From Chromera velia (taxonomy: Eukaryota; Sar; Chromeraceae), in the NCBI GenBank assembly GCA_018398765.1, contig JAHBMJ010001327.1:1-32546 (forward strand): a stretch of 32,546 nucleotides of DNA. The letters run 5' to 3'. Of the stretch, positions 1 through 20,810 are shown piece after piece (the stretch's first letter is position 1; each line of letters opens with the position of its first letter). The notes beneath the pieces are model-generated. The model worked only from the letters and a program-made list of their open reading frames with translations, made no database searches and was not told where the DNA came from. A program made the position numbers and the translations under genes.

Positions 1-2604
1 ATCGTAGCTACCGATGAGTCCCTCCGCCCCCAACGGACCACCGCATCGCCTCACCAGCTCCGTCCAGCCGTCCGCCCTGTCCCATCTGGCATCATACGCA
101 CACAACCCAATCCCCAAGGTGCTACTCTGGCCGAACGCGCAGGGTGGAAAGATTCCGCCTCGCTTCCTTCCTCCGCTGATGCTGCTCTGACTCTGCTTCA
201 GGAACAGGAGACAGCAACCTTTGTCCCCCTCTTTGGTCCCGACCCAATGACTGAGTCCCCCCCCAACACCCTGACGTCCCCTTCCCCTTTGCCCCCTGCT
301 GACTTGCCTGCTGTCCATGCAACGGACCCGTCTCTATCCTCGCAGCCCACTCAGCAGCCGATCCCCGAGTCTGCCCCGCCGGCAACTCCCCCTCTCGCCT
401 CTCCTTTCCCCGTCACGCCTGCCCCGCTGCAGCCAGGCACGATGGTGATTGGTCGTTCCCCCGAGCATTCACTCCTGTGGGTAGGAGAAATCCTTGGTGT
501 CCTGCCGAGTGATGGAGCAGCAGAGGGTGATGTCCGGTATGAGGTCCATGCGTGGGGTTCCCACCAGCGATGTGCTCTGTCCCGCAGGCAGTGGGCACCG
601 GGCTACTATTCCTCGGGAGGGGGGTATGTCTCGTACGATAAGCGCGCTTCCAAGCGTGCGGCAGAGATAGTTGAACTGTCGCACGGTCAGATCGCGGCAG
701 CAGGCTTCGAGATGGAGCGTTCGCGGGGCAATCGCGGGTCTCGTCTTCCCCCTTCTCTCTGCTCTCATTTTGCCTCTGGCTCGGATGGGTGTCATTTCTA
801 TGAGTATCCAGGTGCTCGTTTGTCTGACCCTTCTGTCGCATCTGCTGTTGCTTTTCTTGCTTCTATTGATCTGTCGGTGCGTGCTGCAACCACGCACCGA
901 CCAGTGAGTTTGAAACATCTGTGTCCTGCTTCCCGTCAGCTTGTCTGTTTCGCAGACCAGAAGGAGGATCAGGGATGGATCGATCGGGAGGTCTACATCA
1001 GGACTCCGATCTCTGAGGTCCCGAGGAACGTTCCTCGCGTCCCTCTCCTCCGTGTGCGCACCGAGAAGCTTCAGGACGACGGCACGCGCAAGTTCAAGAC
1101 GCGCACCGTCATCAACGGCAAGCAGGTCCCTCGGGAGGGTTTGAGCGTCGCCACCCGACTCTGCCCCCCCGAAGCTGTGCGCATTGTCCTGCAGATTGCG
1201 TTGGACGCTTGCAAGCGTCGAGGCGTCGACCTTTCCCTTCAGAAGGCCGATGTCGTGCAGGCGTACCTACAAGCCCTGTTGCCTCCTGATCGCCCCCCCC
1301 TCGCTGCCATCCCCCCTTCCGACCACCCAGACCATGGGCAGTTTCTCTGGGTCCGCAAGGCCGTCTACGGCTTGCCCGACGTAGGCAAGGTCTTCGAGGA
1401 TTTTCTTACCTCCGTCCTCCACTCCCTTGGATGGGAGCCAACGCTCTTTCCGGGTGTGTGGGTGTTGCGTAGTGCCGATGGTGAGCTTCGTGCTCTTATG
1501 GCCACCTACTGTGACGATCTGCTCATTCTAGGCATCGGGGAGGATGCGGCAGCTACCATTGACCCCCTCAAGGACATCATGACGTGCGGCGATTACACCG
1601 ATCTCTCGGAGGGTCGTTTTGTTGGTGTACAGTTCGACGTCTCCACCACCGGCGTGTTCTGCCACCAACATGACTACGTCGCCTCCCTTGTCCTCCCTCC
1701 TGATATGGCCGGCTCTGACCGACGTGCAGACAAGCCTCTCCCTGTCGGGTCTACGCATGAGGACGACACCTCTCCTCTGCTGTCTGCCGCAGGTGTGAAG
1801 GTCTTCCGAACCCTGCTTGGGCAGGTAGGCTATGTGGCGAGCTGCACACGGCCAGATGTCGCTCTCGCGCACTCGTACCTGTCACGTTTTCTGGCGTCTC
1901 CGACCGAGAGGGCTCTTCGTCTTCTCCTCCAAACGGTGCGCTACCTCCGTTCGCACCCATCTCTCGGGATCCACATCCGTCCTTCCTCCGACCCGACCAA
2001 GCTGACTGCCATCAAGCATGGGGACTCATCGTTTGGCAACGCCGCCTCCCCATATCCTCAGACGGGCTGGGTTGTTTTTATCAACAACTCACCTCTCATT
2101 TGAAAAAGCAGGAGGCAGTCCCGTGTAGCAAGATCAACTACAAGAGCAGAAGTGCTTGCCCTGGAGGAAGGCATCGACGCCGCGCTGTATTTTGCGAACT
2201 GCACCGCCCCCTTCTACTCCAACATCCGTGTCGGAATTGGCTGCGATGCAGCGAACGTTTTGTCTCTGCTGTTGTCTGGCGCCTCTTCTTCTGCCGAGCG
2301 TGCCTTCCTCCCCATTATCCGGGAGATACAGGACAAGGCTTGTGTCGTTCCCCTCCAGGCCGCCACTGACTTGGTCGAGCAACATAGGATTAGCATCTTC
2401 AAGATCCCCACCGATTCCAACCTCTCTGACCTCCTCACGAAGGCGCTCGACCTTGGCGCTCTGACTCGTCTCATAAGTCCCTCTCCCTCTCTTTCTCCGG
2501 TGTTTGGGAGCGAGATTGTGTCTTCTCTTCCTCCTCTTGCTCTGCGTGACCGCTCGACGATGGAGAAGGAAAGAAGGGGGGATGGGGAGGAGCTGACCGT
2601 ATGA
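1..2604 (+). pseudogene. Ty1/copia-type pol polyprotein, 3' part, interrupted by an in-frame TGA
   Basis: The frame is open from base 1, so the N-terminal part (gag, protease, most of integrase) lies outside the window. A Pro/Ser-rich linker comes first, then a reverse transcriptase. Its first catalytic Asp is in a K-A-D-V-V-Q-A-Y block near 1246-1270 and its Y-C-D-D box is at 1507-1518. An RNase H follows, with G-D-S-S near 2020, A-E-V-L-A-L near 2140 and C-D-A-A near 2245. This order is typical of copia-type elements. A TGA at 2101-2103 interrupts the RNase H, exactly where copia proteins usually have Trp in a W-K-S motif. The same frame then runs on to a TGA at 2602-2604 with no frameshift. 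One nonsense change is therefore the only visible lesion, and the copy looks recently inactivated. The RT domain itself is intact. Confidence 0.9.
2562..2590 (+). other. Candidate polypurine tract of the copia element
   Basis: An all-purine stretch apart from one T, ending in runs of G, lies just before the end of the pol frame. This is where plus-strand priming of an LTR element is expected. It overlaps the last pol codons. A 3' LTR would start a few bases downstream, but the matching 5' LTR is outside the window, so the boundary cannot be fixed. Confidence 0.45.
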
Positions 2605-3140
2605 GAGCGTTTTGTTTGTTTCCCGGTTTTGTCAGCTACCGCTGTAGAAAGAAGAAGCCACGTAATGTTCCAAAAGCATGCTGCTCCTGTTTTTTTGCTT
2701 GTCGATGCGCACTTTTTTTCTCTCTTTCCATTTGGTAAGGGGTGCATGTCGAGCGAATTGATTTTTAAGCGCGTAAGTCCCCATCCGGATCCTTAAATAC
2801 TGCGCGCGCCATCATTGTTTCGGCTCGCTTCACGCATGATATTCATCTTTCCATGTGCTTCTCTCTCTTTCACTGATCCCGGCTCACCTCTCCTGTCAGT
2901 GATTGCACGTTGAGTGACGCACGCTGAGTCCCAATTGTTTATGCAACTGATTGCCATCCCTGGAACTCTTTCACTTCTCGTTTGGGGCTTTCCGGGGTTC
3001 TCGTACGCAGAAACTCTGTCAAGCGTCTCCTCTCGCATGTATTTTGACTCACAAAATTTCTCATTGCTTCATCTTGATCGATTGCTAGAATTGAACGTTT
3101 TTTCCTCTGGGAGTGGCTCTCTGCTTGCCACTCAGTAACG
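2605..3140 (+). mobile_element. Possible 3' LTR of the copia element (boundaries unknown)
   Basis: No protein-coding signal is visible. The stretch follows the polypurine tract directly and has a TATA-like TTAAATA near 2793-2799, as an LTR promoter might. Base composition changes abruptly to very AT-rich after about 3140-3200, which could mark the element edge. No second copy is available to define the ends, so this is inference from position. Confidence 0.3.
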
Positions 3141-3919
3141 ACTTTCTCTGGAGTAAGGACCTACAGATCGATTTCATCGTGAGTCTTTATTTCTGTCTTC
3201 GTGTGTAGCTAGATATTCGTTCTTATAGTCTAGCAAACATCTCGGTTTATGAATTCATTTTCCATCAACTAGTCTGTCAAGAAGAACCGTACTAGCCTGA
3301 GGAATAATTCAACAGTTATCATCATTTTCCTATCATTCACTTAATTTTAGGCTTTCTCAATTTACTTAAATCCATATGGATTCATTTACGTTTACCTATA
3401 AATTGAGTTAGCGCACTAATTAAATCACTATATCTATCATACTATAAGAATTTAAATTCATTAATTTGTCGCATGACAAATTTATCAAAATTTATTTGCA
3501 AATTAATTCACTTAATTTTACGTAAATTCAGCGTAAAGTCACTCCTTAAATCTAGGCTTAAATTCACCTGTCAATGAATTCATTTAATTCATTTGAGTTC
3601 ACGTGTTATTTCTTTAGAGGTTGCGGGGTAGTCTCATAGGCTAATATGAGTCATAGCTAGAAATAGGCTGACGGCAATGACGTATTAAAAAAAAGATGAA
3701 GCCTGTGCAATTTTGAACCGTGCACGGTCCGTGGCAGCACGCACAGATTATATTCCACTTGAGGTGCTCTTTACTCGATGACAGCGGCGAGAGTCAGTCG
3801 AACTGTACGGCATTTCCCTCTCTACTGAATATCATATGCACACATGCGCAGCCTAAAATACACTCCCTCCTGGAGCCCCGGTCGCTTTCAAGATCATACT
3901 GCTGTCTTATCTCTGCCAC
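3141..3919. other. AT-rich intergenic DNA
   Basis: Strongly AT-rich, with many short AATT/TTAA words between about 3290 and 3610 and no convincing exon on either strand. It probably includes the 3' flank of the minus-strand AP2-SET gene. Confidence 0.5.
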
Positions 3920-4095
3920 CAGAAGCTCCTGGGGCCTTTTCGTTCTCCACAAAAGTTCTCAGCATGTGGTCGGACGATATGGAAGCAAAAATGGAAGCAC
4001 CCCAACTAGCAGGCTCCCTTTCACACAAACCATTCACGAGACACACTGCATGCACTCACGACGGAAAAAGAATAAATACAGGCGACAAGGCTCTC
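3920..4095 (+). repeat. Imperfect direct repeat, copy 1
   Basis: Pairs with 4212-4405, with an offset of about 310 bases in the best-matching core. Shared blocks in the same order include GAAGCACCCCAACTAGCAGG (3993 versus 4303), CCTTTCACACAA, CACTCACGACGGAAAA and ATAAATACAGGCGAC. The open frames across this region are by-products of the repeat and have no recognisable product. Confidence 0.85.
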
Positions 4096-4211
4096 AGGAG
4101 GAAAATTAAAGAAACACAGCGACACCCTGCAACGCATTCATCGTGCAACGCATTCATCGATCGATCCGTCGGTCGGTCCGTCTCTCCTGTTGTGCATCCA
4201 CTGCTGACAGC

Positions 4212-4405
4212 GGACGCTCCTGGCGTAGGAGGAGGAAGGCATTTTCGTTCCTCTGCAAAGATGGTCTGTCGGCATCTGTCGGACGACGTGCAAGGAAAAA
4301 TTGAAGCACCCCAACTAGCAGGTCTCCTTTCACACAACGTATTCAGGAAACTCTCTGCAAGCACTCACGACGGAAAACGAATATTGATAAATACAGGCGA
4401 CGGGG
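4212..4405 (+). repeat. Imperfect direct repeat, copy 2
   Basis: Second copy of the 3920-4095 unit, with small insertions and substitutions. It lies just beyond the stop codon of the minus-strand AP2-SET gene, so it may be part of that gene's 3' UTR or flank. Confidence 0.85.
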
Positions 4406-4499
4406 GAAAGAACACACACGAACCCCCCCCTCCAAGTCCACCCCAGCCCCTCAACTCCTTCCTTCATCGATCGATCGAGGGATCGGAGTCCCTTTCTGC

Positions 4500-6192
4500 T
4501 CAGAGTGACTGGCCGCCCAGCCAGTAGCCCTTGTCGTACCTGCAGGAGGGCAGAAGGGGGGCGATGCCTGACTACAGGAAGGGAAGACACGGAAGAAGAA
4601 GAAGAAGAAGAAGAAGAAGAAGAAGAAGAAGAAGACACATGAAAGAAGACGAAACTCCCTGTGACCTCCCTCAGATCAATGAAAGCAAACGGCGACTCAG
4701 TGAAAGAGCAAAACGATGAAGCAAAAGAAGCAGCGTTCTGTTCTGAAAGAAATCTTCACGCTCTGCTGACGCGATCGAAGGGCCCTCCTTTTCAGCCTTT
4801 TCCTCCTAGGTTTCCTGAGTGACGGACGGACTGACAGACTGACGGACGGACGGCCCGACTGACAGACGGACGGACTTGACTTACTGAGTGACTGACTGAC
4901 GGACTGACTGACGGACGGCCCAACTGACGGACTGACTGACAGACGGACGGACTTGACTTACTGAGTGACTGACTGACGGACGGCCCAACTGACGGACTGA
5001 CTGACAGACGGACGGACTTGACTTACTGAGTGACTGACTGACGGACAGACTGACGGACGGCCCAACTGACGGACTGACTGACAGACGGACGGACTTGACT
5101 TACTGAGTGACTGACTGACGGACGGCCCAACTGACGGACTGACTGACAGACGGACGGACTTGACTTACTGAGTGACTGACTGACGGACAGACTGAGTAAC
5201 TGACAGACTGACTGACAGACAGGCTGATTGATAGACTGACTCTCAGACTGGCAGACTGACTGACTGACAAACTCACGAACTGACTAACTGACTGACAGAC
5301 TGACGAGTTCAGGATCTCCCTTCCCTTCTCAATCCGCCTGGTTGCCTTCAAGAAGACTCTTGTGTCTCCCTGCAAGGAGAGACACGAACAGGCAGGCGAG
5401 CACACGAATAAGTTCCTTTTGTCTCGAGAAGAAGAGACAGACTATTTGGGTTCCTTTTGTCTTTTGTTTTCTTTCCAAAGGGACAGACAGGCAAACAGAC
5501 GGAGAGACAAACGATGTCAGGGCGGGTGGGAATCTGGTCGGAACAGCAGGCAGACAGGCAGGTAGGAATCATCGTGCAGCATCAGCAATGAGCGAAAGAC
5601 AGAGAACTGCACCTTCACCGTAGTACCGCAAAGCAAAATAGAAAATCTCCGACGGGAGGTGAGACCGATGCGTACTTCCGGTCAACATGACTAATTGATG
5701 GACAGTACCAGAATCACCCAAGCAAGGTAGGGGCCAACGCTCAATCGCCATGCAATTCCCCCAACAGAGTGCGGACCTAGTGCAACACAAAAGAAGAAGG
5801 ACTCTTCAGCGGGAGCAGGCACATTCACACGCACGTGCCTCTATATCAATTGCGACCAAGCACAACCGGCAAATGAGAGCAACGCCTACATAGACTCACA
5901 ATGCGTTTGTCGTCCATCCACGTGGTTTGCGCGTTGGCCCCCGGAGCCTCCCGACCGTCGATCACCACATTCCCGTCGTTTGCAAACTGTGCCGCCCCCA
6001 GTCCAGGGATCACCTTTTTCTGCATGGTAGCATGGGGAGAAAAGAGGGGGGGGGGGGAAGTGAATTGCAAGTACATGTGAGAAGGAGTGGAACAAAATCG
6101 ACCCAGAACCATGTCAAAAGGTGGCGCGTAGAAAAAATACCGAGACAGGGAGCTGGGGAGTTTGTAAAGCAATAGAACAAGACGGATCGAGA

Positions 6193-6233
<41 letters not shown>

Positions 6234-6472
6234 AAATGGAGCCACATCCAGAGGACCTGTGAGGGAATTTAGAAAAGAAGGGAGAAAAACAGATCATTCC
6301 GTGCCCGCGTTGGGAACAAAGGAAGAGTGCCATACAAAACAGTTTGACAGAAGAACGGGCAAAAACAAAAAGGAACTATGTGCTTTAGACAGAACAAGAG
6401 CAAATACATAGAGTGAGAAATGAACAGACACAGCGAATCATACGAACGGATGAATGAACACACACACACAGA

Positions 6473-6504
<32 letters not shown>

Positions 6505-6684
6505 CACAATAAACAGACAGTCAGACAGACCCACCAGTCCATCCAGACATCTGAGGCCCTTGCTCAGAGACACAGTGTGCGAATCCTCTCCCTTTTCCCT
6601 CAGTCTCTTCGCAGTCTCTCGATCGATCGGGTTTCCCACATACTCGGTGATGATGTCACCCTTTTCGAAATCCCTGCACGCACG

Positions 6685-6724
<40 letters not shown>

Positions 6725-9700
6725 TTCATGAGAACGGACAGCCGATTGAATGGAGAGGCACGGCTTTTCGTACCTGCTAGACGCACTAGAACACGAACAG
6801 CCGAAAGAGAAAGGGGTACGCAGACGCATGCAGTCAGGCGGCCCAATGCAAACGCAGACATATTCGCCCCACACAGTCGCAAGATACGAAAGGTCGATTC
6901 ATCTGTCCCATCCACCCCCCGTCTATGCATCCAACCAGGGAGCGTCTCACGTCAGAGCACTCACCAGCAGGCAAACAGCCCATTGCCTACATGAGGCCCC
7001 AGAGACGAACTGCAAGCATAAATTTACAGCACCAGAGAAGACAAGAGAGGACCAAAAGGGACAAACATGTGGAGACAAGCAAGAGACAGATTGTGGAGAA
7101 GCAAGAGACAGCATAGATCCGACGTCGCGTATGCCGTCCTCTTGTCTTTTCCCCTGGGTATCCACGGACGGACTGACAGACTGGTCTGACGCATAGTTAG
7201 ACAGACAAAGAGACTGATGGACAGGGTGACAGGTAGACAGGTGGACAACTACACAGACCATATGTTTCTCTCTTCTCCGTCCTTGTCATGTGCCCCCAGA
7301 CCACTAGACTGTAGGGCTTTCCGAGCCCCCCCCCTTTCCTTTTTACGTATCGACAAAGGACAAACAAATGACAGGTTTGAGTCAAAACTCGCGTATGCAT
7401 TGCAATGAAGGCACAAACAGCATGCTTCTCTCTGATGGATTCCTGAAGGGTGGAAAGGAGAAAAGCATGCTCACAAGATTTGTTCACACCATGAGCCTCT
7501 TTTGAGTGAAACACATTTGCCGTGCTCACACCAAGGAGCTCTCCATTCATTGAAATTGAATTGCTCTTCACTCATTGAAATTCAAACACACGCCCCGAGA
7601 AGTCTGCAATGCTGTCTGCCTGTGTGCCTGACTGTCGGTCCCCCTCCCTCCTTCCCTGCCTGTCTACCTGACTGACTGACGGGGCAACACGGACGCCGTC
7701 CCCCACAACAGCCACGAGCTTCTTGTTGATCACCACGGGCTCGCACCACCTCTTCTTGACGAACTTTTTCTTCTCCTTCTCCACAGTCGTGCCATCCCTC
7801 ACCGCCCCCGCAAGGTCAACTGCAGTGAAAACGCAATGACAAAACAGACAGCATCACAGAGGCTTCCATTTTTTCTTTCCACCTCCATTTCCCTCTTTCT
7901 TCTGTGCCGTTTCCTCTTCTGCTTTCCTTTGTCTCTTTGAGAGGTGTTCCCAGTCGCATCCTGCCGAATAGATTATTTGCATGCACCAATTTCTTCGAAG
8001 AAAGCATCAGCGCTCAGTTCACCATCTCTCTGTCATCACACAATGTCCATAGATGCATCAGCTGACTGACGGAACAACCAATCGACTCAAAACGACTCAT
8101 TCATTCATTCATTTTACCCCGGAATCACCAAATTTCCCTTCGTCAGTCAGATCAAGTCGCTTCAAGAATCTGGACCAAACAGCCACGACTGACTGACGTT
8201 TGCTTCGGGTCTCAGACGGGACCTTCTCGGTGTCCTCCCCTCTCCACAACCCTGGAAGAGCATCCAGGACCACTTCCTTCCTGCAGGCAGGCAGGCAGGC
8301 ACACACCGTGACGACACGTTAGACAATTGAGCACTTGCACGCTTCAGCAGTAAAGAATTTCCAGCGAAAAAATCCTCAGCACGCTGAAAGAAGCGCGCAA
8401 AGAAAACTAAAACAAGAGGAGCCCTCAAAAGCTGAAGCCCCGATCGAGTCACCACAGCTGGAGGTAAAACACTCCCTCCCTTTCACTCCATGCATCCCCG
8501 ACTCACTGAAAGCTGCGGTGAAGGGTGCAGACACAAACTGAGGTACACGCAGAGGCGGAAAGAAACAAAGACGCAAGCGGAGAAGAAGAAAAGATCCGAA
8601 AGCTTTGCACTCGTCCAAAGTCACTGCTCCCATGGGGGCACACAAAAATAAAATAACTGACGTACATCATCTCCTTCCTCCGACGAGTAGCTTCCTCCAC
8701 CAGATCCCTGACTGATCTGCTGTCTCTCTGGAGTCCCCCCCCTCCGTTCGTCTCCTCCTCTGCCTCCGCTCTTTGAAATTCCTTGGAAGAAGCGGAAGAG
8801 GAAGAAGGGAAGCGAGGCGCACGGGGGGCACGAGGGAAGGCAGTGGCAGGGGAGGGGTCGTTCTCTCCCCCCTCTCCAACCCCCCATCTCTCACTGCTGT
8901 CTGAGGCGCAGAAAACTTGTACGCCGGGACCCCTCCGCTTCATTGACACTCCCTCCCCCCCGCCCTCCCCATCCTCGTCACGGCGTCTCTTCAAAGTCAA
9001 CAGCGGGTCCCCCGAATCCCCAGCAGAGGCAGAGGCAGAGGACGGGCGCCCCCCCCCCTTGAGCCCCCCTTTCGCTTCGGCGCCCCGTCTCGCAGCGGCA
9101 GCACCGGAAACGAAGGAGACGGAATTGCCCATTCGGAGTGATGGACCCTCACAGTCACGGGACACAGGGGGCGCATTCCCTCTGCTGGGAGCACGAGGGT
9201 CGGCAGAGCTGCTGGAGGAGGCAAGCAGAGGGCCTGCCGATGGCACACCCTCCTTCTGTCTCCGTCTCAACTCCCCCTCTTTTGTGGTCGCATGCATCAT
9301 CCATTGGCGCTCTGCCGTGTCCTTCGCTCCCTCAAAGCCGTGCTCGTTCGCAGAGAAGCTCTCATGCGTTTCTTCCCCGTCTAACTGCTTAAAACGAACC
9401 AACCAGGAGTTCTGCGAGGAACTGTATGTGACTCCTGGAAACATGCTGGTGGCGTCTGCTGCTGCTGCGTCCAAACGGCGGGACTTGGGGTGCGAGCGGG
9501 AACCGCTGGAGGAAGAGGTGGCTCCCTCCTCTGTCTCTTTCTCTTTCTCCCTCTTTCTCTTCGCCCGTCTCTCATTGGGAGAGAGGTGCTCCTCCTCGAG
9601 CTTCTTACGGTGCGCAATCGCTTTCTTCTTCGCCCCCTCTTTTCCGTGGCAGGAAACAGAAAAGTCTCTCACGTACTTTTGACCTCTGACTGTCAGCTGG

Positions 9701-12700
9701 GCCCTCCATTTATGGAGTGACTCGACCCAGAAGACACCAGGAATCGACCTGTCCCCCCCCTCTGCGGTGGGCACAGGGGACGGACCTCCGGAGGCCCCCC
9801 CCCTCCCGGGGCCGTGCTCCCTCTCCAGCTTCTTCCTATGTGCAATGGCCTTCTCAAGAGCCCCCGATTCCCCGTGGACGCTCACGGAAAACGAACGAAT
9901 CCACTTTTTTCGTAAACCGGCCACCCAGGCCCGATTTTGCACATTCCAGTAGACCCCTGGAACCCCGCTATCTCGGTGCTGCACTCGCTTCTGCTGCTGC
10001 TGCTGCTTTTTGAAGGCAGGACTGAGCCGCAACCCCCCTTTCTGTTGTTTGTGTTTCGAGGAAGACAAGGAAGACGAAGAGGAAGGGAGAGAAGAACGAA
10101 CTCTCTTTCCCCCAACCCCCCTTGGCAGGTGTTTCTTTTCCATCTCCTCGCGGAAAGAGATTGCCTCTCTGAGGGATTGGTCTCTTCCCAATCTGCTGAC
10201 AGAGAAAAGTTTAAAGTACTGTCTCTCTCCGACGTGCAGCCTGGATTCCCACCCATTCTTCTGATCGCGCCAGGAAACCCCAACCACACCGCTGGCGGGC
10301 CTCCCACTTGACGCACACACTCCCTCTTCCTCCTCGCCCTCTTCTTCTCCCTCCTCCTCTTCAGCAGGTTCTGCTGACGATTCTCGGCTCCCTCTCTGGC
10401 CAGAGGAGGAGGAAAGGGAAAGAGGTGCATTTGGGAAAGGGCTTTTGTTGCCCTGGAATTTCTCTTTCAGTTCGCTTTCCATTCGAGACAGATCAGTTGT
10501 TCCACTTTCTTTCATTTTCTCCATCTCTGTTCGACACCCCTCTGCCCTCTGCAACGCTGTGTCTCCGAACTTCGACAGAGGGAAGTGAAGACGCAGACGA
10601 CCGTCACCCACTCTGATACCAGTCTCCCAGCTGCTGATATTCCTGTTCCATCTGACACCGAACAGATGTCCCCCTTCCCCTACTGCTGCTGCCTCCCCAT
10701 CTTCCTCTTCCTCTTCCTCGGAAGGAGACGTCGGGAGGGATATACTCATGGATGGGCGGTTGATTGGACGAGGGGCATTCTGTCTCTCCATGTTTCTTCG
10801 GTACAAAATCGCCTTCTTAAGAGCCCCATCTTTTCCGTGGACGCTGACGGAAAAAGAACGAGAGGGCTTGTTGGGGAAATAACCCACCCAAGCCTGGTTG
10901 GTTGCATTCCAGTGAACCCCCACCACCCCATTCGGTCTGTGCGTCTCCCTGTGCTGCTGCTGCTGCTGCTGCTGCTTCTGTTTGAAGTTTTTACTGACTC
11001 GCAACCCCCCCTTCACTTTCTTTTTCGTGGAAGAGGCGGAACAGGAAGAAGAGACACCAGCAGCAGCAGCAGCAGAAGAAGAAGAAGAAGGGCGAGAAGG
11101 ACGCAGTGTCTTTCTCGCACCCCCTCCTGACAGGTACTTCCTTTCCATTCTCTGACGGAAGTCCTTCGCCTTTTGCAAGGCTCCCTCCTCCCCATGAACA
11201 GAAACAGAAAAATAACGACAGTACGGATGCCCCCCCACGTTCAGTCGAGAGTTCCAACCCCTTTTTGAGCTCCACGAAACACCCACCACTCCGCTGGAGC
11301 GCGTGGTCGCGGGGACACGGGAATCACCCGTACAAACCTCTCCGTCTTCCTGTTCGCCACCCTTCTCTTCCTTTTCCTTTTCCAAATCACCGTTGTCATT
11401 CTCTGTCTCCGTCTCTGTTCCATTACCACTCTCTTTCGCTATACCGCTTCCTTTGTGCTGCTCCTCCCGACACACGTTCGAGCTAGACACTCGACCCCTG
11501 CCACGCCCTTTCTGCACGCGTGAAGAGGAAGCGGAGGGCAAGACGGAAACGGGGCCTGCCGAAGCCCCGTGATGATCAGCTAGGAATTTTTTTTTCAGTT
11601 CGTCTTTCATCTCATCAAAGTCCGTCCTCCCCTGATCTTTCATTTCTTCCATTACCTTCCGGCACTCCTTTGCCCTCCGCAAGGCCTCTTCCTCCCCGAA
11701 CCTGCACACAGGAAAACGAATGTACATCTCAGGTTGCCGGGACATTTTCATCTTGCACTCCCACCTTTGAAGGTACTTGTTCCAGGTGACTCCAACCATT
11801 CCGCTCTCTCGCCTCCCCTCAGACTGCCCCAGGCTGACCTTTCCCGTCTCACCCGGGGGGCACTGCTCACCTTCACTTTTCTCCTCCCCTCCTTCCGACT
11901 CACTTCCACTGTCTGCCTGTGCCCCCCCCTCCTCACTCACAGGCCCACACTCGGAGTCAGGCAGATGCTTTCTCTCCATCTCTTGGCGAGCGGCGATCGC
12001 CAACTCACGTGCTATTTCATCCCCGTGAACAGCAACGGGAAAGTTCTCACGGTACGTGTGGGCTCCTACTGTGAGGTTGGCACGCCACCGGCTGTTTTCT
12101 GAATCCCAGCTGACTCCTACCTTCTCACAAAACCTTCTTCCTTTCCCTGCACGCGTCTTTTCTGCAGCAAGAGAGCCAGACTGTCGAGTCTCTGCAAAAT
12201 CCCCTTGCGCTTCTTTCCCTCCTTCTTTCTCCTTCTGACTCTTTGGAACAGGGGGACCTGATTTTGATGTGAGGATGAGGGGCCTTTTCTGTTTCTCTTC
12301 CTCCTCCTTCCTCACACGCTTCACGTACACTTTCGCTGCACGTAGGGCGGCTTCACGATCCCCATACTCAGAGAGGGAGAAAGACGAGGAACACGAACGA
12401 CCGTCTACCCGCACCCTCACCACCCACTGGTCCCCACCCTCGTCCCAACTGACTCCCTCAACCCCGCTCGGCCACATTGTGCATGGGTTCGGAGACTTCC
12501 TTTTCCTCTTCGCCTGCACGGGCCCTCCAGGAGCACACGCAGCTGCAGAGGAGGCAGAGGGAACCTCCTTTTCCTCATCCCCCCCGCTGTTCATCTCCCC
12601 CTCTTCTACCCCTCTTTCCTTCTCCTTCTCTTCCCTCTCCTCTCTTTCTACCCTTCTTTTTTTCTCCTTTTCCTCCTTCTGCTCTTCTTCCAGCCTTTTT

Positions 12701-13953
12701 TCCTTCTCCTTCTCTTCCCCCTCCTCTCTTTCTACCCCTCTTTCCTTCTCCTTCTCTTCCCTCTCCTCTCTTTCTACCCTTCTTTTTTTCTCCTTTTCCT
12801 CCTTCTCCTCTTCTTCCAGCCTTCTTTCCTTCTCCTTCTCTTCCCCCTCCTCTCTTTCCACCCTTCTTTCTTTCTCCTTCTCTTTCTTCTCCTCTTCTTC
12901 CAGCCTTCTCCTTTTCTCCTTCTCTTCCCTCTCTTTCTCCATCTCCCCGTCCGTTCCCTCCCCTACACCCTCCTCCGGTCCCCTCTGTGAGAAAGGACCA
13001 TCACGGTGACGCAAAGGGCCGTGGAGGACGGGGGGGGAGACGGCGGGCATCGGGTGTGAGTCTGGGCACCGAGGTCTGTTTTGGGGGGCTGAGAACAGAA
13101 ACGAGGCCGGTCTGATGCCGTCTCCTCTGTCTCTTTGTCTGTCTCCGTCGCGAAAAGCTCGGGAGACCCCCCCCATGGAGAAGTGTTGGCACAGAGGCTG
13201 ACTGAGAGAGGCGGGGCGCAAGTGAGCGACAGGGGTTGCACTCGATCTACCGCCAGATGGGGTCGTTTGCGCCTGCGAAGCCACTCGGGGAAGGCTGTGA
13301 GGGGCAGCAGAAACACCCGCAGAGGGCAGGAAACGAGTGAGGCCGTCTCCTGCTCCACTGCCTCCTTCCCTATCTCTGTTCTGTCCTTCACGCTCATTGA
13401 GGCGATCCTGTTGTCCGAGACGGCTGCTGCTTTGAAAAAATGAGGGGCTTCTCCCGGCCTGCTCTGGTCGGCTGGTCTCTCTGCCTCCCCCTTGGCTGTG
13501 CAGGAAGGAAGAAAAGGACTGTGCACGTCTCTGTCTTCCCCCGTCTCCACTCTCTCCCCTCTCACCGTCCCGTCCCGCACTGATGCCGGTCCTCCCCTCT
13601 GAGGGAGGCGGGGGGGCAGAGCCTGTGCCGAAAGAGGAGGAGACGGCGGACGAGGAGACGGAAACCCCAGCGGCTCTTTGCGGACGGGCGCGGTTCCAGG
13701 AAAAGCCCGTGACCATCACCTCATCGTCATCTTCATCTGCAGCAAAGGGGACGGGTGCAGTGAAGTGCCCAGTATGGCTGTAGGCGGCTGCGGCGGAGAA
13801 GGGAGGCTGGCGGGGGGCTGCCGCACTGCTGGAACTCGCGCTCGCGTGTTCCGCAGTCTCCTGAGGTCTCTCTTCCTCCTCGTCGTCTTCCACGTTGATG
13901 ACCTCCTCCAGGTCGCTCATGGGAGCTTCCTCAGCAGGGGGCTGCGGGTCTTC
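4500..13953 (-). CDS. Predicted AP2/ERF (x10) - SET domain fusion protein, seven exons
   Basis: Exons on the minus strand: 13953-8666, 8280-8129, 7819-7681, 6673-6535, 6019-5900, 5369-5305 and 4539-4500. The first acceptor (TTCCTATTGCAG) precedes 13953, so a 5' exon, probably untranslated, lies upstream. The first in-frame ATG at 13920 gives 1,969 aa. The N-terminus is acidic, Ser-rich and disordered. A Lys/Glu repeat covers residues ~325-440. AP2 domains start near residues 482, 598, 705, 873, 993, 1083, 1207, 1313, 1390 and 1490, each with a G-V-x-W strand, an F-S/F-P strand and a final helix. The SET domain covers ~1830-1963: G-D-G (1842-1844), E-Y-V-G (1859-1862), F-A-N-D-G-N (1907-1912), I-E-K-G-R-E, and Y-D-K-G-Y-W (1958-1963). 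There is no post-SET cysteine cluster. SET proteins transfer methyl groups from AdoMet to lysine. AP2 domains bind DNA, so a nuclear chromatin role is inferred. Junction phases all agree. Two adjacent genes remain possible. Confidence 0.82.
4592..4635 (+). repeat. (GAA)n microsatellite in the last AP2-SET intron
   Basis: About 14 perfect GAA units, lying between the last exon (ends at 4539) and the GACT minisatellite. The serine-run and arginine-run open frames here are repeat translations. Confidence 0.95.
4808..5303 (+). repeat. GACT/GACG minisatellite with alternating 77- and 65-bp units
   Basis: Tetranucleotide-based DNA (GACT, GACG, GACA) with a higher-order repeat. The marker ACTTGACTTACTGAGTGACT recurs at 4874, 4951, 5016, 5093 and 5158, at spacings of 77, 65, 77 and 65 bases. 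The pair is therefore a 142-bp unit, and the longer form carries 12 extra bases (three tetranucleotides). It lies inside the last intron of the AP2-SET gene and touches the 5' splice site at 5304. Confidence 0.95.
6190..6229 (+). repeat. (GA)n microsatellite
   Basis: A GAGA run of about 40 bases inside the AP2-SET intron between exons 4 and 5. It is read as CTCT on the transcribed strand. Confidence 0.95.
6459..6508 (+). repeat. (CA)n microsatellite, downstream of the SET exon
   Basis: A CA repeat with a few substitutions, which is GU-rich in the transcript. It begins about 25 bases into the intron after exon 4 of the AP2-SET gene. Confidence 0.95.
6675..6722 (+). repeat. (CA)n/(CGCA)n microsatellite forming the SET exon acceptor region
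   Basis: On the transcribed strand this is (GU)n followed by (GCGU)n, running directly into the GCAG acceptor of exon 4 at 6674-6675. It replaces the usual polypyrimidine tract. Confidence 0.95.
9815..11805 (-). repeat. Duplicated three-AP2-domain module inside the AP2-SET gene
   Basis: AP2 domains 3-4-5 (about 11805-10775) and 6-7-8 (about 10670-9815) are paralogous blocks. Domains 3 and 6 share a D/S-x-M-x-x-E-L-K-x-K-F tail. Domains 4 and 7 share S-G-V-V-G-V-S-W. Both blocks then have a Ser-rich linker, a K-G-G-L-R motif and a poly-Gln run before domains 5 and 8. The shared linkers show duplication of a whole three-domain unit, not of single domains. Confidence 0.85.
12600..12945 (-). repeat. 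126-bp coding tandem repeat, Lys/Glu-rich
   Basis: The plus-strand block TCTACCCCTCTTTCCTTCTC recurs at about 12604 and 12730, with a degenerate third copy near 12856. The period is 126 bases, or 42 residues. It encodes a highly charged E-K-E-K-E/R-R-V-E-R-E-E pattern, probably a long single helix or coiled coil in front of the first AP2 domain. The period is a multiple of three, so copy-number change would keep the frame. Confidence 0.9.
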
Positions 13954-14579
13954 CTGCAATAGGAAGAAATATTCAAATGCATATCCGAAAAGAGAGTGAG
14001 TGCAAAATTCCGAAGGAAAAATGGAATTAAGGAGAGGTCTGAATTCAAATGACTGAAGAGCAACTATTCGCTTTTTAAGTGCATCGCAGTGTTACCCATC
14101 CAAAATACTGTAGCCCATCGTCTCGTTTCACTCTCTGCATCTCCCAAAGAGCCGGCAAGGCCACACAATGTCAAAAAGGCCAAATTCCACCCTCCCTGTC
14201 TCCTCTCCACTGACCTCCCCGATCAAGCCCAGAAAATTGTGTCCTGCATCCATCTTCAAAGGAGACCACCTGCTTGCTGGCCTTCTCAGTGGGATCTACC
14301 AAAAGTTCAATGTGCTGTCAGAGAAGATGCCTGCACACCTCTCTGCTTTACCAAAAGGTTAAATACTCCTCCCTCGCAAAAAGGTCGGGAAAAACTATTA
14401 GTAAGAGTTGGGAAGCAAAAATAGTGTGCAGGCTGAAAAGTCAGACTGCGCTGAAGCCCATCAGACGGAAGCGATTCACTGAAGTCGTGCCTTGGAACGT
14501 CAGTGGCAGTGCGGTTGTAGTTTTTGCACGTGAGAGACAGATTACCGAAGAAGGACATTGAACGTCGGACGAGTCGATT

Positions 14580-15486: not shown

Positions 15487-18400
15487 TCAAGTTGTTCTTT
15501 CATCTAAAGAGGGCTCTTCATTTGCATCTGTGTCTTCTGCATCCTCCTGAGGTATTCCCACACCTTTTGGAACAAAAGCTACAGAAGCAACAGCGTCCCC
15601 TGCAGGCAGTTTCTGCACACGCACTCCCTTGGCCATGCGGCCCTGTACAGATATGGGGTCAGTGCTTTGTCGCACCATTCGACCTTTCCGCGTCCCCACA
15701 AGAATATCCGTCTCGGGAGGACACGTCCGAAGACAAGTCAGGAAATCCTCTGAGCCTTTTTTGAATTTCATTGCGATTGAACCCATACCCGCCCGTGCTT
15801 GTACTCTCAAGTCACTTGCACGCAACCTCTTCCCAATTCCATTGCTTGTCAAACACAAAAGACTGCTTTCTTCATTACCTTCTTCCCCCTTCTCCCCCCC
15901 CGGCAACACCTCCATGTCCTCCACCAGATCCCCCGGCCTCAATCGGATCGCGCGCACACCGCGCGAAGTTCTCCCGGTTACTCTCAGATCAGATCCAGAC
16001 GCAGAGAACCTCAAAGCCCTCCCCCCTCTGGTTCCCACGACAATCGAGTCTGCCTCACTGCACACCCGCGCAAATTTCAACGAGTCTCCCTCGTTCACCG
16101 TCATCACACGGAGACCTCTCGCAGTCACCCTTCTGAGGGCAGAGAGCTTGCATCTCTTCATCAACCCCGCGTTGGTCATCAGGACCAGAAAACTCTCTTC
16201 AGCCTCGTCCTCTCTGCCTGCTGCCTCTTCCCCCTTCGTCTTGCTGGGCTCTGCTGGCAGTGTCAGAACCGCAGCCACCTTTGTCTCTGCCGAGATGGGA
16301 AGCACAGAGGGTGCAGGCACCCCCCTGGCTGTTCTGCCGGCCATGGGCACGATTGCAGGGGGGAGATCGAAGGCAAAACCGTCGGAAGTGAAAACGAGAA
16401 CCCTGTCTTTCTCGGAACACACACAAAAAAGACGGAGGTAATCATTCTCACTCAACCGCCCCACTCCCGCCTTCCCACCCGTCCCCCGCCCCTGCATGGC
16501 GAAGTCTGAGAGCGACAGTCGCTTCACATACCCCTTCGCTGTCAGCATCAACGCCGACACCTCGTCTGCCTCATCCTGTCCATCCGCCCCCCCCAACAGA
16601 ATCCCCCCACTTGCATCGCCCTGCCGCTGAGACCACTGCTTGTCCTTCCCCCCTCCCCCGAAAGCTATGGGCCCTGCAGGCTCTCCGTTCTCGTCTATCT
16701 CCACAATCAACGATCTGCGCGGTCGCGCGTGCTTCGCTGCAACTTCCTTCAATTCTTCCTTGATCACATCCCACACTTTCTGGTCTTCTTTCATCAATTC
16801 GTTCAGCTCCTCAATGCGTTTTCTGACTCCCTCGAGCTCCTCGCGAAGGGCAGACTCCTCAAGAGAAGTCAAACGGCCCAAGGTCAGACGCAGCACTGCC
16901 TGCGCCTGTTCTGCAGACAGCCTGAAGGGCTCTTTCGAGAGCGCATCCCGCGCCGCCCCCTGGTCGCTAGAGGCTCGGATGACGTCCACCACATCATCAA
17001 TCCGTCTGAGGGCAGAGAGGAGTCCTTCTATCACGTGGGCACGCGCCTCCCTCCTCAGAAGCTCCGCCGCCGCCATTCTCCGAACAGTGGAGAAACGGAA
17101 GTCCAGCCAGAACAGCAGAGCAGCCCTGTGAAAAGAGGACATGGAGCACGAGAGGAAGAAAGGGGCATCAACATTCATCAATCAATCAATCAATCAATCA
17201 AGAAAGCAAGAAGGAAAACAAGCAAGATTGAACGAACGAAGGAACACAGCAGCAGACCCAGGCAGTCTCACCTCCCACCCTCTTGCTTGTGGAAACAGAC
17301 CAAATCTTTTTTTCTTCCTCTCTTCCTTCCTTTGCTTGAATAGAAGCATTCATGGACAGAAAAAAGAGAGAGACAACCGACGGACTCATGTTGGGAGAGA
17401 CATCGAAAGCGCAGAAGGAGGGGAAAGACAACGAGAAGAAGAAACGAGAGCCGGGCAGCCATTCCAGAAGAGCCAGTATGTGATTTCGGATTTCTGACAA
17501 GACAAAAGGCACAACCAGCCAGCCAGCCAGGAGGGGAGGTGATCCTTCCTGCCGCATAGATAGACCGTCTGCCTGTCTAGCGGCCTACCCCTTCCAGAGA
17601 AGAGAAAAGAAGAAACACGAGAAGACCGCCGGGGAGGGAGGAAGGAAGGAGGGAAGAAAGAAAAGAAGAAACGAGTAAACGAAATGTGAAAAAGGCATAA
17701 CCAAAAAAGGGTAAGAAGAAAGAGAGGGAAAGAACAAAGGAGAATGAGATCAAGGCCCAAAAAACCAGAAAAAAGAAGAAAAGAAAGAGAGGTAGATCAA
17801 GGGACCAGCAAATCAAATGAACAAAGCAGCAGCACCAAAATCGATCCACCCACCGGAGTGTGAGCCTCACAGGTTGTTTACCATTCTCACCAATTGCTAC
17901 CAAATTTCCGGAGAAAGACGACTCCAAATTCGTCAGCTTCCACATTTTCTGTAACACCCGTGAAGGAATTGCCCCTCTCTTGATCTCTATAACCACCCTC
18001 ATGCCGTCTCTGTCACTTTCATCCCGAACATCCGCAATGCCCTCCAACTTCTTCTCAGTTGCAAGCGCGGCTATTCTCTCCAACAGAAGAGCCTTGTTCA
18101 CAGAGAACGGAAGTTCAGTAACCACAAGAGCTGACCCCTCCCTCCCCCGACCCTTCTGGATTTCCTCCACGTGCACACGCGCACGCACACGAACGCCCCC
18201 CCCTGATGTGGTGTACAGCTTCCTTGCCCCCTGAGTGCCCAGAATGATCCCCCCTGTTGGAAAATCTGGCCCCGGCACTAATTGGAACAAATCGTCGTCT
18301 GGCAACTCTCTCTCGTCGATCAACGCGATACACGCACTGACCAACTCTCCCAGATTGTGGGGGGGAATATTCGTTGCCATTCCCACGGCAATGCCTGTTG

Positions 18401-19169
18401 CACCATTCAGCAGCAAATTCGGCACACGGGCTGGAAGCACGGTGGGTTCTTTCTCATTCCCATCGAAATTCGGAAGGAAATCCACGGCCGCACTGCGGTC
18501 CTTCTCTCCTGAGGACGAGAGGTCCCGAAGCAACGCGTCAGTCGCGAAGCCTGTCAGTCTGCTCTCAGTGTACCTCATGGCTGCTGCCGGGTCTCCATCG
18601 ACAGACCCAAAGTTGCCGTGCCCGTCCACCAGGGGGGCCTGCATGACGAAGTCCTGGGCCATTCGCACAAGGGCGTCGTACACAGCCACATCGCCGTGGG
18701 GATGGTATTTTCCCAACACCTCCCCGACAACCCTGGCGCACTTTCGAAAAGACGAAGAGGGACTAAGGCCAAGTTCGCTCATCGCCCACAAAATTCTTCT
18801 GTGCACTGGTTTCAGACCGTCTCTGGCATCTGGAAGGGCCCTGCCAAGGATGATGGACATGGCATATGACATGAAGGAGGTCGATAGCTCGGTCTCCAAC
18901 TCGATCTGTATGACGTTGTTTCCGGGAGACGGGGGCACGAGGGAGGCCGTCTCTGTCTCTGTCCCCAGGGGCGGGGCCTTGAAGAGTGACGTGGAAGGTT
19001 GCGATGAGTGGGGGGGGGCATGACCGGGTCTGTCTTTCAATCGGGGTCTGTGCGGTGTCCCTCTCAAGTTTTGTCCGAGGAAGGCACCAACAGACATTTT
19101 AGAACAGGAGACGGCAGCTGATGAAAAGAAGGAAAGGAAAATAAATAAACGCACACGTAAAGACACCAT
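15487..19169 (-). CDS. gyrA: DNA gyrase subunit A, predicted plastid-targeted, two exons
   Basis: Exons are 19169-17854 and 17125-15487. Donor CCG|GTGGGT and acceptor TTTCACAG join CG+G into one Arg codon, giving 984 aa. Gyrase A cuts and rejoins DNA through its active-site Tyr and, with gyrase B and ATP, introduces negative supercoils. Residues 1-~22 look like a signal peptide (hydrophobic L-F-I-F-L-S-F-F) and ~23-85 resemble a transit peptide. This is the two-part signal used for import into complex plastids. The core starts near residue 90 with [10 protein letters not shown]. The active-site Tyr is residue 200 (A-A-M-R-Y-T-E). The quinolone-region motif reads [10 protein letters not shown], with Val161 at the Ser83 position of E. 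coli numbering. The C-terminal part has a gyrase-box-like Q-G-R-G-T-G-G-K and several G-R-x-x-R-G-V-R blade motifs, favouring gyrase over ParC. Confidence 0.95.
17176..17200 (+). repeat. (AATC)n microsatellite in the gyrA intron
   Basis: Six ATCA-type units just inside the acceptor end of the 728-base gyrA intron (17126-17853). The rest of the intron is purine-rich on the plus strand, so the transcript is pyrimidine-rich, and it has no coding signal. Confidence 0.9.
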
Positions 19170-19877: not shown

Positions 19878-20810
19878 ATGTTCCAGCTCACCCCTCTCAT
19901 CCTCAGACATGTGCGTCGTTTGCAGCCTGTGTCTGCTGAGTGCCTTCGGACCTCTGTGAAGACCTTCATAGAAAAGGAGAACAAGGCAGACTTGCTTTTC
20001 CTTCTCCGTCTGGGTGTTCATGTAGACGGACTGGTGGAGGTTCCGGACGGGGACTCCACTGTTGACTTTCGGGGGCCCTTCAAGGAGACTGCTCTCCACC
20101 TGGCGTCACGGCTCGGCTCTCTGGAGGTTGTGCTCAGGCTTCTTGCTTTCGGTGCTGGTCCCAATGTGAAGGCGTCTCGAGATTGCAGAGCGCTCATCTG
20201 GGCGGCAGCCGGGGGACATGTCGAGATCGTGAAAGCACTGCTGGATGCAAAGGCGAAGGTGGACGACCAGCAGTTTTGGGGTTGGACGGCGCTCATGAAA
20301 GCCGCAGAGGGGGGTCATGATGGGACTGTGCAGGTCCTCCTGGAGGCAAACGCGTCTGTCCACGCCTGCCAGGGTCATGGGAGGACCGCACTGATTGGTG
20401 CAGCTGAGTACGGTCACACCGGCATCGTGAAGCGTCTGCTGGATGCAGGAGCGCGGGTTGATGTGGTGGTGAGGACGGGCCCTAAGGGTACAGGCAGGAC
20501 GGCACTTCTCTGGGCCTCTGAAGATGGGCACAGTGACGTTGCGCGGCTGCTTCTGAGAGCGAATGCGAATGTGAATGCAACAGATGGTGCAGGAGCAACA
20601 GCGTTGATCAGAGCAGCGGAGAACGATCATTTTGAGGTTGTGGAAGCACTCATAGAGGCCCAGGCCGATGTGGAAGCCCAAGACATTCATGGCCACACAG
20701 CGCTGCACTATGCGAAGTTGAACGAATCTCGGGATATTGTCAGCGTTATCGAGAAGGCCGCGATTTCAAGGAGCCAGAACCCCAGCAAGACAGACAAAGG
20801 GAAGCCTTAG
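19878..20810 (+). CDS. Ankyrin-repeat protein, intronless
   Basis: A 310-aa protein with seven recognisable ankyrin repeats. The T-A-L or R-A-L starts fall near residues 71, 104, 137, 170, 208, 241 and 274. Most have the classic A-A-x-x-G-H-x-x-I/V-V-x-x-L-L helix pair. The spacing is 33 residues, with one 38-residue step where a G-P-K-G-T-G insert extends a loop. Residues 37-60 look like a degenerate capping repeat. There is no signal peptide, membrane segment or catalytic domain, so it is probably a soluble protein-binding scaffold. The partner is unknown. It diverges from gyrA. The ATG is the first in frame and follows a TATA-like motif closely. The basic C-terminal tail (about 20 residues) is not ankyrin. 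Confidence 0.92.
   Translation: MFQLTPLILRHVRRLQPVSAECLRTSVKTFIEKENKADLLFLLRLGVHVDGLVEVPDGDSTVDFRGPFKETALHLASRLGSLEVVLRLLAFGAGPNVKASRDCRALIWAAAGGHVEIVKALLDAKAKVDDQQFWGWTALMKAAEGGHDGTVQVLLEANASVHACQGHGRTALIGAAEYGHTGIVKRLLDAGARVDVVVRTGPKGTGRTALLWASEDGHSDVARLLLRANANVNATDGAGATALIRAAENDHFEVVEALIEAQADVEAQDIHGHTALHYAKLNESRDIVSVIEKAAISRSQNPSKTDKGKP

Follow-up and report, generated by a model that had tools for sequence, protein, structure and literature searches.

Does the minus strand of a Chromera velia contig encode one protein in which an array of AP2 domains is joined to a SET domain, or do two adjacent genes lie there? The question is raised by contig JAHBMJ010001327.1, which was analysed over its whole length of 32,546 nt (the window; contig C1325 of the genome). 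The comparison with related loci supports a single spliced gene at positions 14253-4500 of the minus strand of the window, with ten AP2 domains followed by a SET domain (Table 1), and this gene looks to be one of a real family of at least four AP2-SET genes rather than a pair of misjoined neighbours. That the fusion itself is real we regard as almost certain.

When the genome (177.8 Mb, 4,040 contigs) was searched with the SET part, we found three further genes, on contigs C1232, C1740 and C2407, in which 7-11 AP2 domains precede a SET module of the same kind. In these genes 1.6-2.0 kb separate the last Pfam AP2 match from the first SET match downstream of it, and strand and order are unchanged. 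The six introns between the AP2 exon and the stop codon have homologous positions and phases (2, 1, 2, 0, 0 and 2) in all four genes, intron 1 is short in every case (276-448 nt), and the exon lengths of 139, 139, 120 and 65 nt are common to them, the 139 nt of exon 3 in C1232 depending on the choice of the first of two GTCAGT donors. At its phase-2 donor the AP2 exon has a basic end in the four genes (RRKEMM, NRKPLM, KRKML and KRRHLM), exon 2 carries LPG or LPE, and the short last exon includes SY..YW and the stop codon. Over the SET part and 60 linker residues, the pairwise identity among the four genes was 40-61%. The exon borders of the window gene had been chosen from the window before the paralogs were compared.

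The initial annotation had proposed seven exons of 5,943 nt in total, with GT/AG at every intron and a single frame to a TGA codon. This structure stood, with the exception of the end of exon 2, which had been placed at 8129 and was set aside for 8198 (donor GTCAGT at 8197) by homology with the three paralogs, whose matching donor is GTCAGT in C1740 and C1232 and GTGAGT in C2407. Both ends are in phase; exon 2 probably ends at 8198, and the 8129 end could represent a splice variant. The AP2 exon (13953-8666) comprises a Ser/Glu/Arg-rich N-terminus, the ten AP2 domains, a linker with the motif TLKRR, which is found in three of the four AP2-SET genes, and an end ..RRRKEMM at a phase-2 donor. Since this exon opens at an acceptor, an earlier 5' exon is required, and a candidate of 39 nt at 14253-14215, which begins with ATGGATGCAGGACAC and ends at GTCAGT in phase 0, fits this position and may supply the start codon. 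The resulting coding length is 5,913 nt (1,970 residues) with the 8198 end; with the 39-nt exon and exon 2 extended to 8129 the total is 5,982 nt.

Several donors, among those at window positions 8197, 7680 and 5304 and in the paralogs, are GTCAGT with further GTCAGT repeats behind, which gives alternative donors 4 bases apart; such stacked donors are likely to cause errors in the annotation of the genome of Chromera velia. In exon 2 of C1740 and in exon 3 of C1232, where the repeat reads GTCAGTCAGT, the GTCAGT located 4 bases downstream breaks the frame and the first GTCAGT was adopted.

The explanation that two adjacent genes, one for a factor with an AP2 array and the other for a SET protein, were misjoined has only a very small probability in our view, and it was discarded on the strength of the paralog gene structure and of the start codons missing in two of the four genes. 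Some points do weigh against a single gene: the models of the window gene and its paralogs were all predicted from genomic sequence, on whose comparison the claim of one gene rests, the paralog splice sites were picked by homology, and C1740 and C2407 contain an ATG in the read-through ahead of SET exon 2 that reads into this exon, so that a separate SET start is possible in these two genes. On the other side, the order, the strand, the short intron 1, the basic end of the AP2 exon and the phase-2 junction were kept at four loci, and no start was found for the SET part of the window gene, where the first methionine is residue 155 of 194 and the open read-through upstream has no ATG, nor for that of C1232, which has no methionine and likewise no ATG in its open read-through. 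A separate start for the SET exons, which the initial annotation had taken as the mark of two genes, was thus absent from two of the genes and conceivable in the other two, while its proposal of one gene agreed with the architecture, intron positions and phases shared by the three paralogs.

Furthermore, AP2 domains and SET domains of this type (with ANDG at motif III, see below) share contigs above chance, in three of the nine SET contigs besides the window. The probability of this co-occurrence was 2e-5 when contigs were taken as equal, 1e-3 if 1,000 contigs were counted and 9e-3 if 500 were counted, with 10 SET contigs at E<=0.001 and 27 AP2 contigs in the count; at least 56 AP2 matches were located on these 27 contigs. 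C3514 (SET-like, E 0.00102) was just outside the count, and its AP2 match is downstream of the SET match, in the reverse order. From these results together we infer that the window gene is transcribed as one mRNA.

A hidden Markov model search of the spliced translation placed both domains above the Pfam cut-offs. AP2 (PF00847) was matched with E 8.5e-62 and 205.7 bits against a cut-off of 33.3, in nine stretches at E<=1, and SET (PF00856) with E 6.7e-7 and 30.1 bits against 22.4. Besides these two, Pfam at E<=1 gave only MinC_N (E 0.032, below its cut-off), with no PHD and no zinc finger. The search of NCBIfam returned no family for the AP2 exon, and only one irrelevant sub-threshold match for SET. 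The count of ten AP2 domains held: all ten scored 45.3-68.2 bits with a trained profile, which reached a maximum of 6.6 bits on 800 shuffled proteins. This profile was seeded with the ten stretches recognised by eye and then trained on four sister proteins, and it is circular for the training members; one extra match in the window gene, of 1.1 bits, was discarded.

The AlphaFold2 model of AP2 domain 9, for which the ten window domains served as alignment input, consisted of a three-stranded sheet and a helix (pLDDT 82.6). The first 12 Foldseek matches of this model were all apicomplexan: seven were chains of the Toxoplasma mitoribosome, five of them with AP2 names in the profile search, and five were DNA-bound Plasmodium AP2 chains (SIP2 and PF14_0633). 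When the ten-domain profile was compared with solved chains, it matched Toxoplasma AP2VIIb-2 (E 2.4e-15), AP2IV-1 and AP2IX-6, and Plasmodium PF14_0633 was matched with E 1.9e-3. These results fit the apicomplexan type of AP2 better than the AP2/ERF label that had been given to the domains. The predicted AP2 fold of the window domains is well supported; the ligand is less well supported than the fold, DNA being the likelier one with other candidates remaining.

The motifs of the SET domain are those defined in an excerpt of PMC9487757, where the canonical motif III is RFINHxCxPN. GDG, YVG, FANDG and the tyrosine of motif IV follow each other in the right order in the window gene, as had been noticed before. 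The four AP2-SET genes retain GDG at motif I and the tyrosine of motif IV (SY). At motif II the window gene and C1232 have YVG, C1740 and C2407 have FVG, and motif III is replaced by ANDG with a later N, invariant in 8/8 aligned members of the SET family and preceded by F in 7/8. No pre-SET domain was detected in the Pfam scan of the window protein, and there is no cysteine after motif IV in any of the four genes. Six of the eight family members matched Pfam SET at E<=0.1. With the profile of the family, the best solved enzyme was EZH2 (E 6e-4), followed by KMT2C/D and KMT5A, matches too weak to assign a class; these enzymes and NSD have the same motif order, while the window family has ANDG at motif III. 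The SET domain of the AP2-SET genes is divergent, and its catalysis is a prediction. This module is under purifying selection: the dN/dS of the SET part was 0.18-0.32 in the six pairs of the four genes, ratios that are rough given a dS of 0.87-2.27.

The initial annotation had suggested that the protein targets its own methyltransferase to DNA, a proposal that is plausible and that is weakened by the atypical motif III and by the presence of such AP2 domains in mitoribosomes as well. In the mechanism that we consider rather probable, the large protein (about 1,970 residues), in which a low-complexity N-terminus is followed by ten AP2 domains, a linker and, at the C-terminus, the divergent SET domain, would bind particular DNA sequences by means of its AP2 array and so keep the SET domain at the site, where it would methylate a lysine of some neighbouring protein, in the simplest case a histone. 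A single polypeptide would then both recognise the sequence and mark the chromatin, functionally resembling PRDM9. We infer in this way a nuclear location, a DNA ligand, lysine methylation and a histone substrate; this view is weakest with regard to motif III and to a gene model that is predicted from sequence.

Several of the results weigh against this mechanism. The ANDG of motif III, found instead of NH-C in all eight aligned members, and the FxG of motif II in two of the four genes mean that the activity of the SET domain could be altered or lost, and the similarity to active enzymes is weak. It could therefore be that the fusion is real and that the SET domain is catalytically dead, acting as a binding or dimerisation module, which we judge unlikely: all four genes retain GxG and the tyrosine of motif IV, 8/8 members retain the asparagine of motif III, the module is under purifying selection, and PR/SET domains without NHSC can be active. 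Somewhat less likely still is an array that binds RNA or a ribonucleoprotein, joined to a SET domain whose target is not a histone but, for instance, a ribosomal protein. Among solved AP2 chains those of mitoribosomes are indeed the nearest, as judged from the profile matches and from 7 of the first 12 structure matches. The lowest Foldseek E-value was 2e-3, with none of the 731 matches at 0.001 or better. However, the other five of these 12 matches were chains bound to DNA, and the basic stretches KRKRK and TLKRR would suit a nuclear protein. A DNA-binding array that places an active SET domain on chromatin is the mechanism that we prefer.

The number of AP2 domains in the stretches read was 10 in the window gene, 11 in C1232, 8 in C1740 and 7 in C2407, the last three counts being lower bounds as the 5' ends lie outside the models. 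In a tree of AP2 domains (53 columns and 36 rows, few forks resolved, the domain groups having been picked after seeing the sequences), the window gene and C1232 had their last domains grouped together with a support of 96/87, as expected if array and SET module had been copied as a unit. One fork (87/89) comprised those two last domains and the first-type domains of the four genes. Domains 6 and 8 (98/93) and 5 and 7 (95/94) of C1232, as well as domains 5 and 7 of C1740 (98/95), formed pairs that look like internal duplicates. The simplest reading would be that an already fused AP2-SET gene was duplicated and that the arrays were then altered by internal duplication. Against this, the tree of eight SET members, in which C4013 and the fragment C3749 were not included, did not unite the AP2 carriers in one clade: two changes were needed, one change being enough in 3% of 200 bootstrap trees, and therefore a single fusion followed by loss and repeated fusion are both possible.

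Other SET domains of the genome have different sequences ahead of them. In C4013 a SET domain of the same family lies behind cysteine-rich exons, in which PHD was matched below threshold (E 0.0021), and the exon end EEAKARRARFL resembles VEEATRRRKEMM of the window gene; at C4013:40500-48500 (2399-4940 and 5100-7770) the PHD-like region replaces AP2, and SET exons 2 and 3 are seemingly one exon. In C1291 an intron interrupts the AP2 domain, whose Pfam match (E 1.5e-4, 22.4 bits) stays below the cut-off of 33.3 bits; a full gene model was not made and C1291 was excluded from the four AP2-SET genes. The frame between its split AP2 and SET exons (3339-4628) contains KKRRGRPPK, which we take to resemble an AT-hook. 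C639 and C2021 (L050 306-1904 and L052 3-1259) carry distant single-exon SET domains with CEHGxxRxxCKxCGG repeats ahead and GYINDPS at motif III. In the DNA stretches examined of C619 and C3470, the AP2 family profile gave no match better than E 0.1, and the long frame of C1754 had no Pfam AP2 and two AP2-like stretches of 7-9 bits, which were left uncounted. Among viral contigs (50 pattern matches) and bacterial and archaeal contigs (80 pattern matches) no outside relative was confirmed, in collections from which near kin were possibly left out. From the AP2 arrays (the four genes and the split AP2 of C1291), the PHD-like region of C4013 and the CEHG repeats of C639 and C2021, we tentatively propose, as an idea that may well prove wrong, that the ANDG SET cassette, private to this lineage, is a plug-in writer joined to varied N-terminal readers, and that the expansion and contraction of AP2 arrays through internal duplication would give PRDM9-like self-targeting writers with a fast-changing address.

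Two decayed copies were also observed. C1667:19500-22500 contains a partial and broken copy of the window AP2 exon with an interrupted frame, one piece having 83% identity and an internal stop, apparently a recent duplicate that has since decayed. At C3749:34802-37900 (match 1501-1842) there is a fragment similar to SET exons 5 and 6, with 72% identity in one piece, ANDE in place of ANDG and a frame that ends early; it has probably decayed too.

In apicomplexans, the chromatin enzymes that AP2 factors are believed to recruit are separate proteins. If the proposed mechanism is true, the link from an AP2 site to a chromatin mark could be tested directly in a free-living alga related to the malaria parasites, using a single protein instead of a reconstituted complex. 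The AP2-SET proteins would, in addition, be an analogue of PRDM9 that arose independently, with a duplicating repeat array fixed to a SET-type domain. Like the window protein, PRDM9 and other PRDM proteins combine an array of nucleic-acid-binding repeats with a SET-type domain whose motif III is non-canonical; in contrast, they have zinc fingers and an N-terminal SET domain instead of AP2 and a C-terminal one, and no common origin is claimed. The C2H2 zinc-finger array that defines PRDM membership was not found in the window protein with Pfam at E<=1.

The ApiAP2 proteins of apicomplexans and chromerids (PF00847) have the same type of AP2 domain by profile and fold, whereas the window gene has ten domains in one exon and a C-terminal SET domain. 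AP2 duplicates are common in chromerids according to an excerpt of the chromerid genome paper, whose AP2 section, as excerpted, does not mention SET partners (PMC4501334). The same paper describes RNA-seq of Chromera velia from 36 culture conditions. The earlier statement that no AP2-SET fusion had been described proved too strong: the Class III-3 PHD-SET proteins of Archaeplastida have AP2 as an additional domain, though not as an array of ten, in the part consulted of PMC5725981. These proteins share with the window gene the presence of AP2 and SET in one protein, but they are Trithorax-class proteins with PHD fingers, whereas the window protein has an AP2 array, no Pfam PHD, hence no PHD beside SET as in Class III-3, and a SET domain that fits no named class. 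In oomycetes, histone deacetylases carry PHD and two AP2 domains (PMC5112689, in part); AP2 is fused there to a histone-modifying enzyme as it is here, but the enzyme is a deacetylase and the AP2 domains are two. Among the titles and abstract openings of the literature searched, no protein with an AP2 array and a SET domain was found described.

Table 1. Exons and AP2 domains of the AP2-SET gene (window positions)
Feature	Position	Strand	Remarks
Probable exon with start codon, MDAGHNFLGLIGE	14215..14253	-	In-phase ATG; GTCAGT donor, phase 0; joins 13953
AP2 exon, 5,288 nt	8666..13953	-	Pfam AP2 E 8.5e-62; open frame
AP2 domain 1	12304..12465	-	Family profile
AP2 domain 2	11968..12126	-	Family profile
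AP2 domain 3	11641..11802	-	Family profile
AP2 domain 4	11137..11292	-	Family profile
AP2 domain 5	10780..10929	-	Family profile
AP2 domain 6	10513..10671	-	Family profile
AP2 domain 7	10132..10290	-	Family profile
AP2 domain 8	9817..9966	-	Family profile
AP2 domain 9	9589..9747	-	Modelled as 9565-9759; three strands and a helix
AP2 domain 10	9289..9444	-	Groups with last AP2 domain of C1232, support 96/87
Exon 2 of SET side, corrected 3' end (probable)	8198..8280	-	Homologous donor in 3/3 paralogs
139-nt exon, RWC..P...AVVGDGV, SET motif I GxG	7681..7819	-	Length and phase equal in 4/4
139-nt exon, DFEKGDIITEYVG, SET motif II YxG	6535..6673	-	Length and phase equal in 4/4
120-nt exon, GLGAAQFANDGN..N, place of SET motif III	5900..6019	-	Length and phase equal in 4/4
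65-nt exon, DTRVFLKATRRIEKGREILN, start of SET motif IV	5305..5369	-	Length and phase equal in 4/4
Final exon, SYDKGYW..stop, motif IV tyrosine	4500..4539	-	SY(D/G)xxYW in 4/4

The window carries spliced genes. Upstream of the AP2-SET gene and on the same strand, positions 15487-19169 (minus) correspond to a two-exon gene for DNA gyrase subunit A, with the Pfam DNA_topoisoIV match (E 9.4e-117) in one exon and the C-terminal domain (E 8.7e-58) in the other; its hydrophobic N-terminus suggests targeting, perhaps to the plastid. On the plus strand, a copia-type reverse transcriptase (RVT_2, E 1.2e-12) is located at 247-2103 and an ankyrin-repeat protein at 19878-20810.

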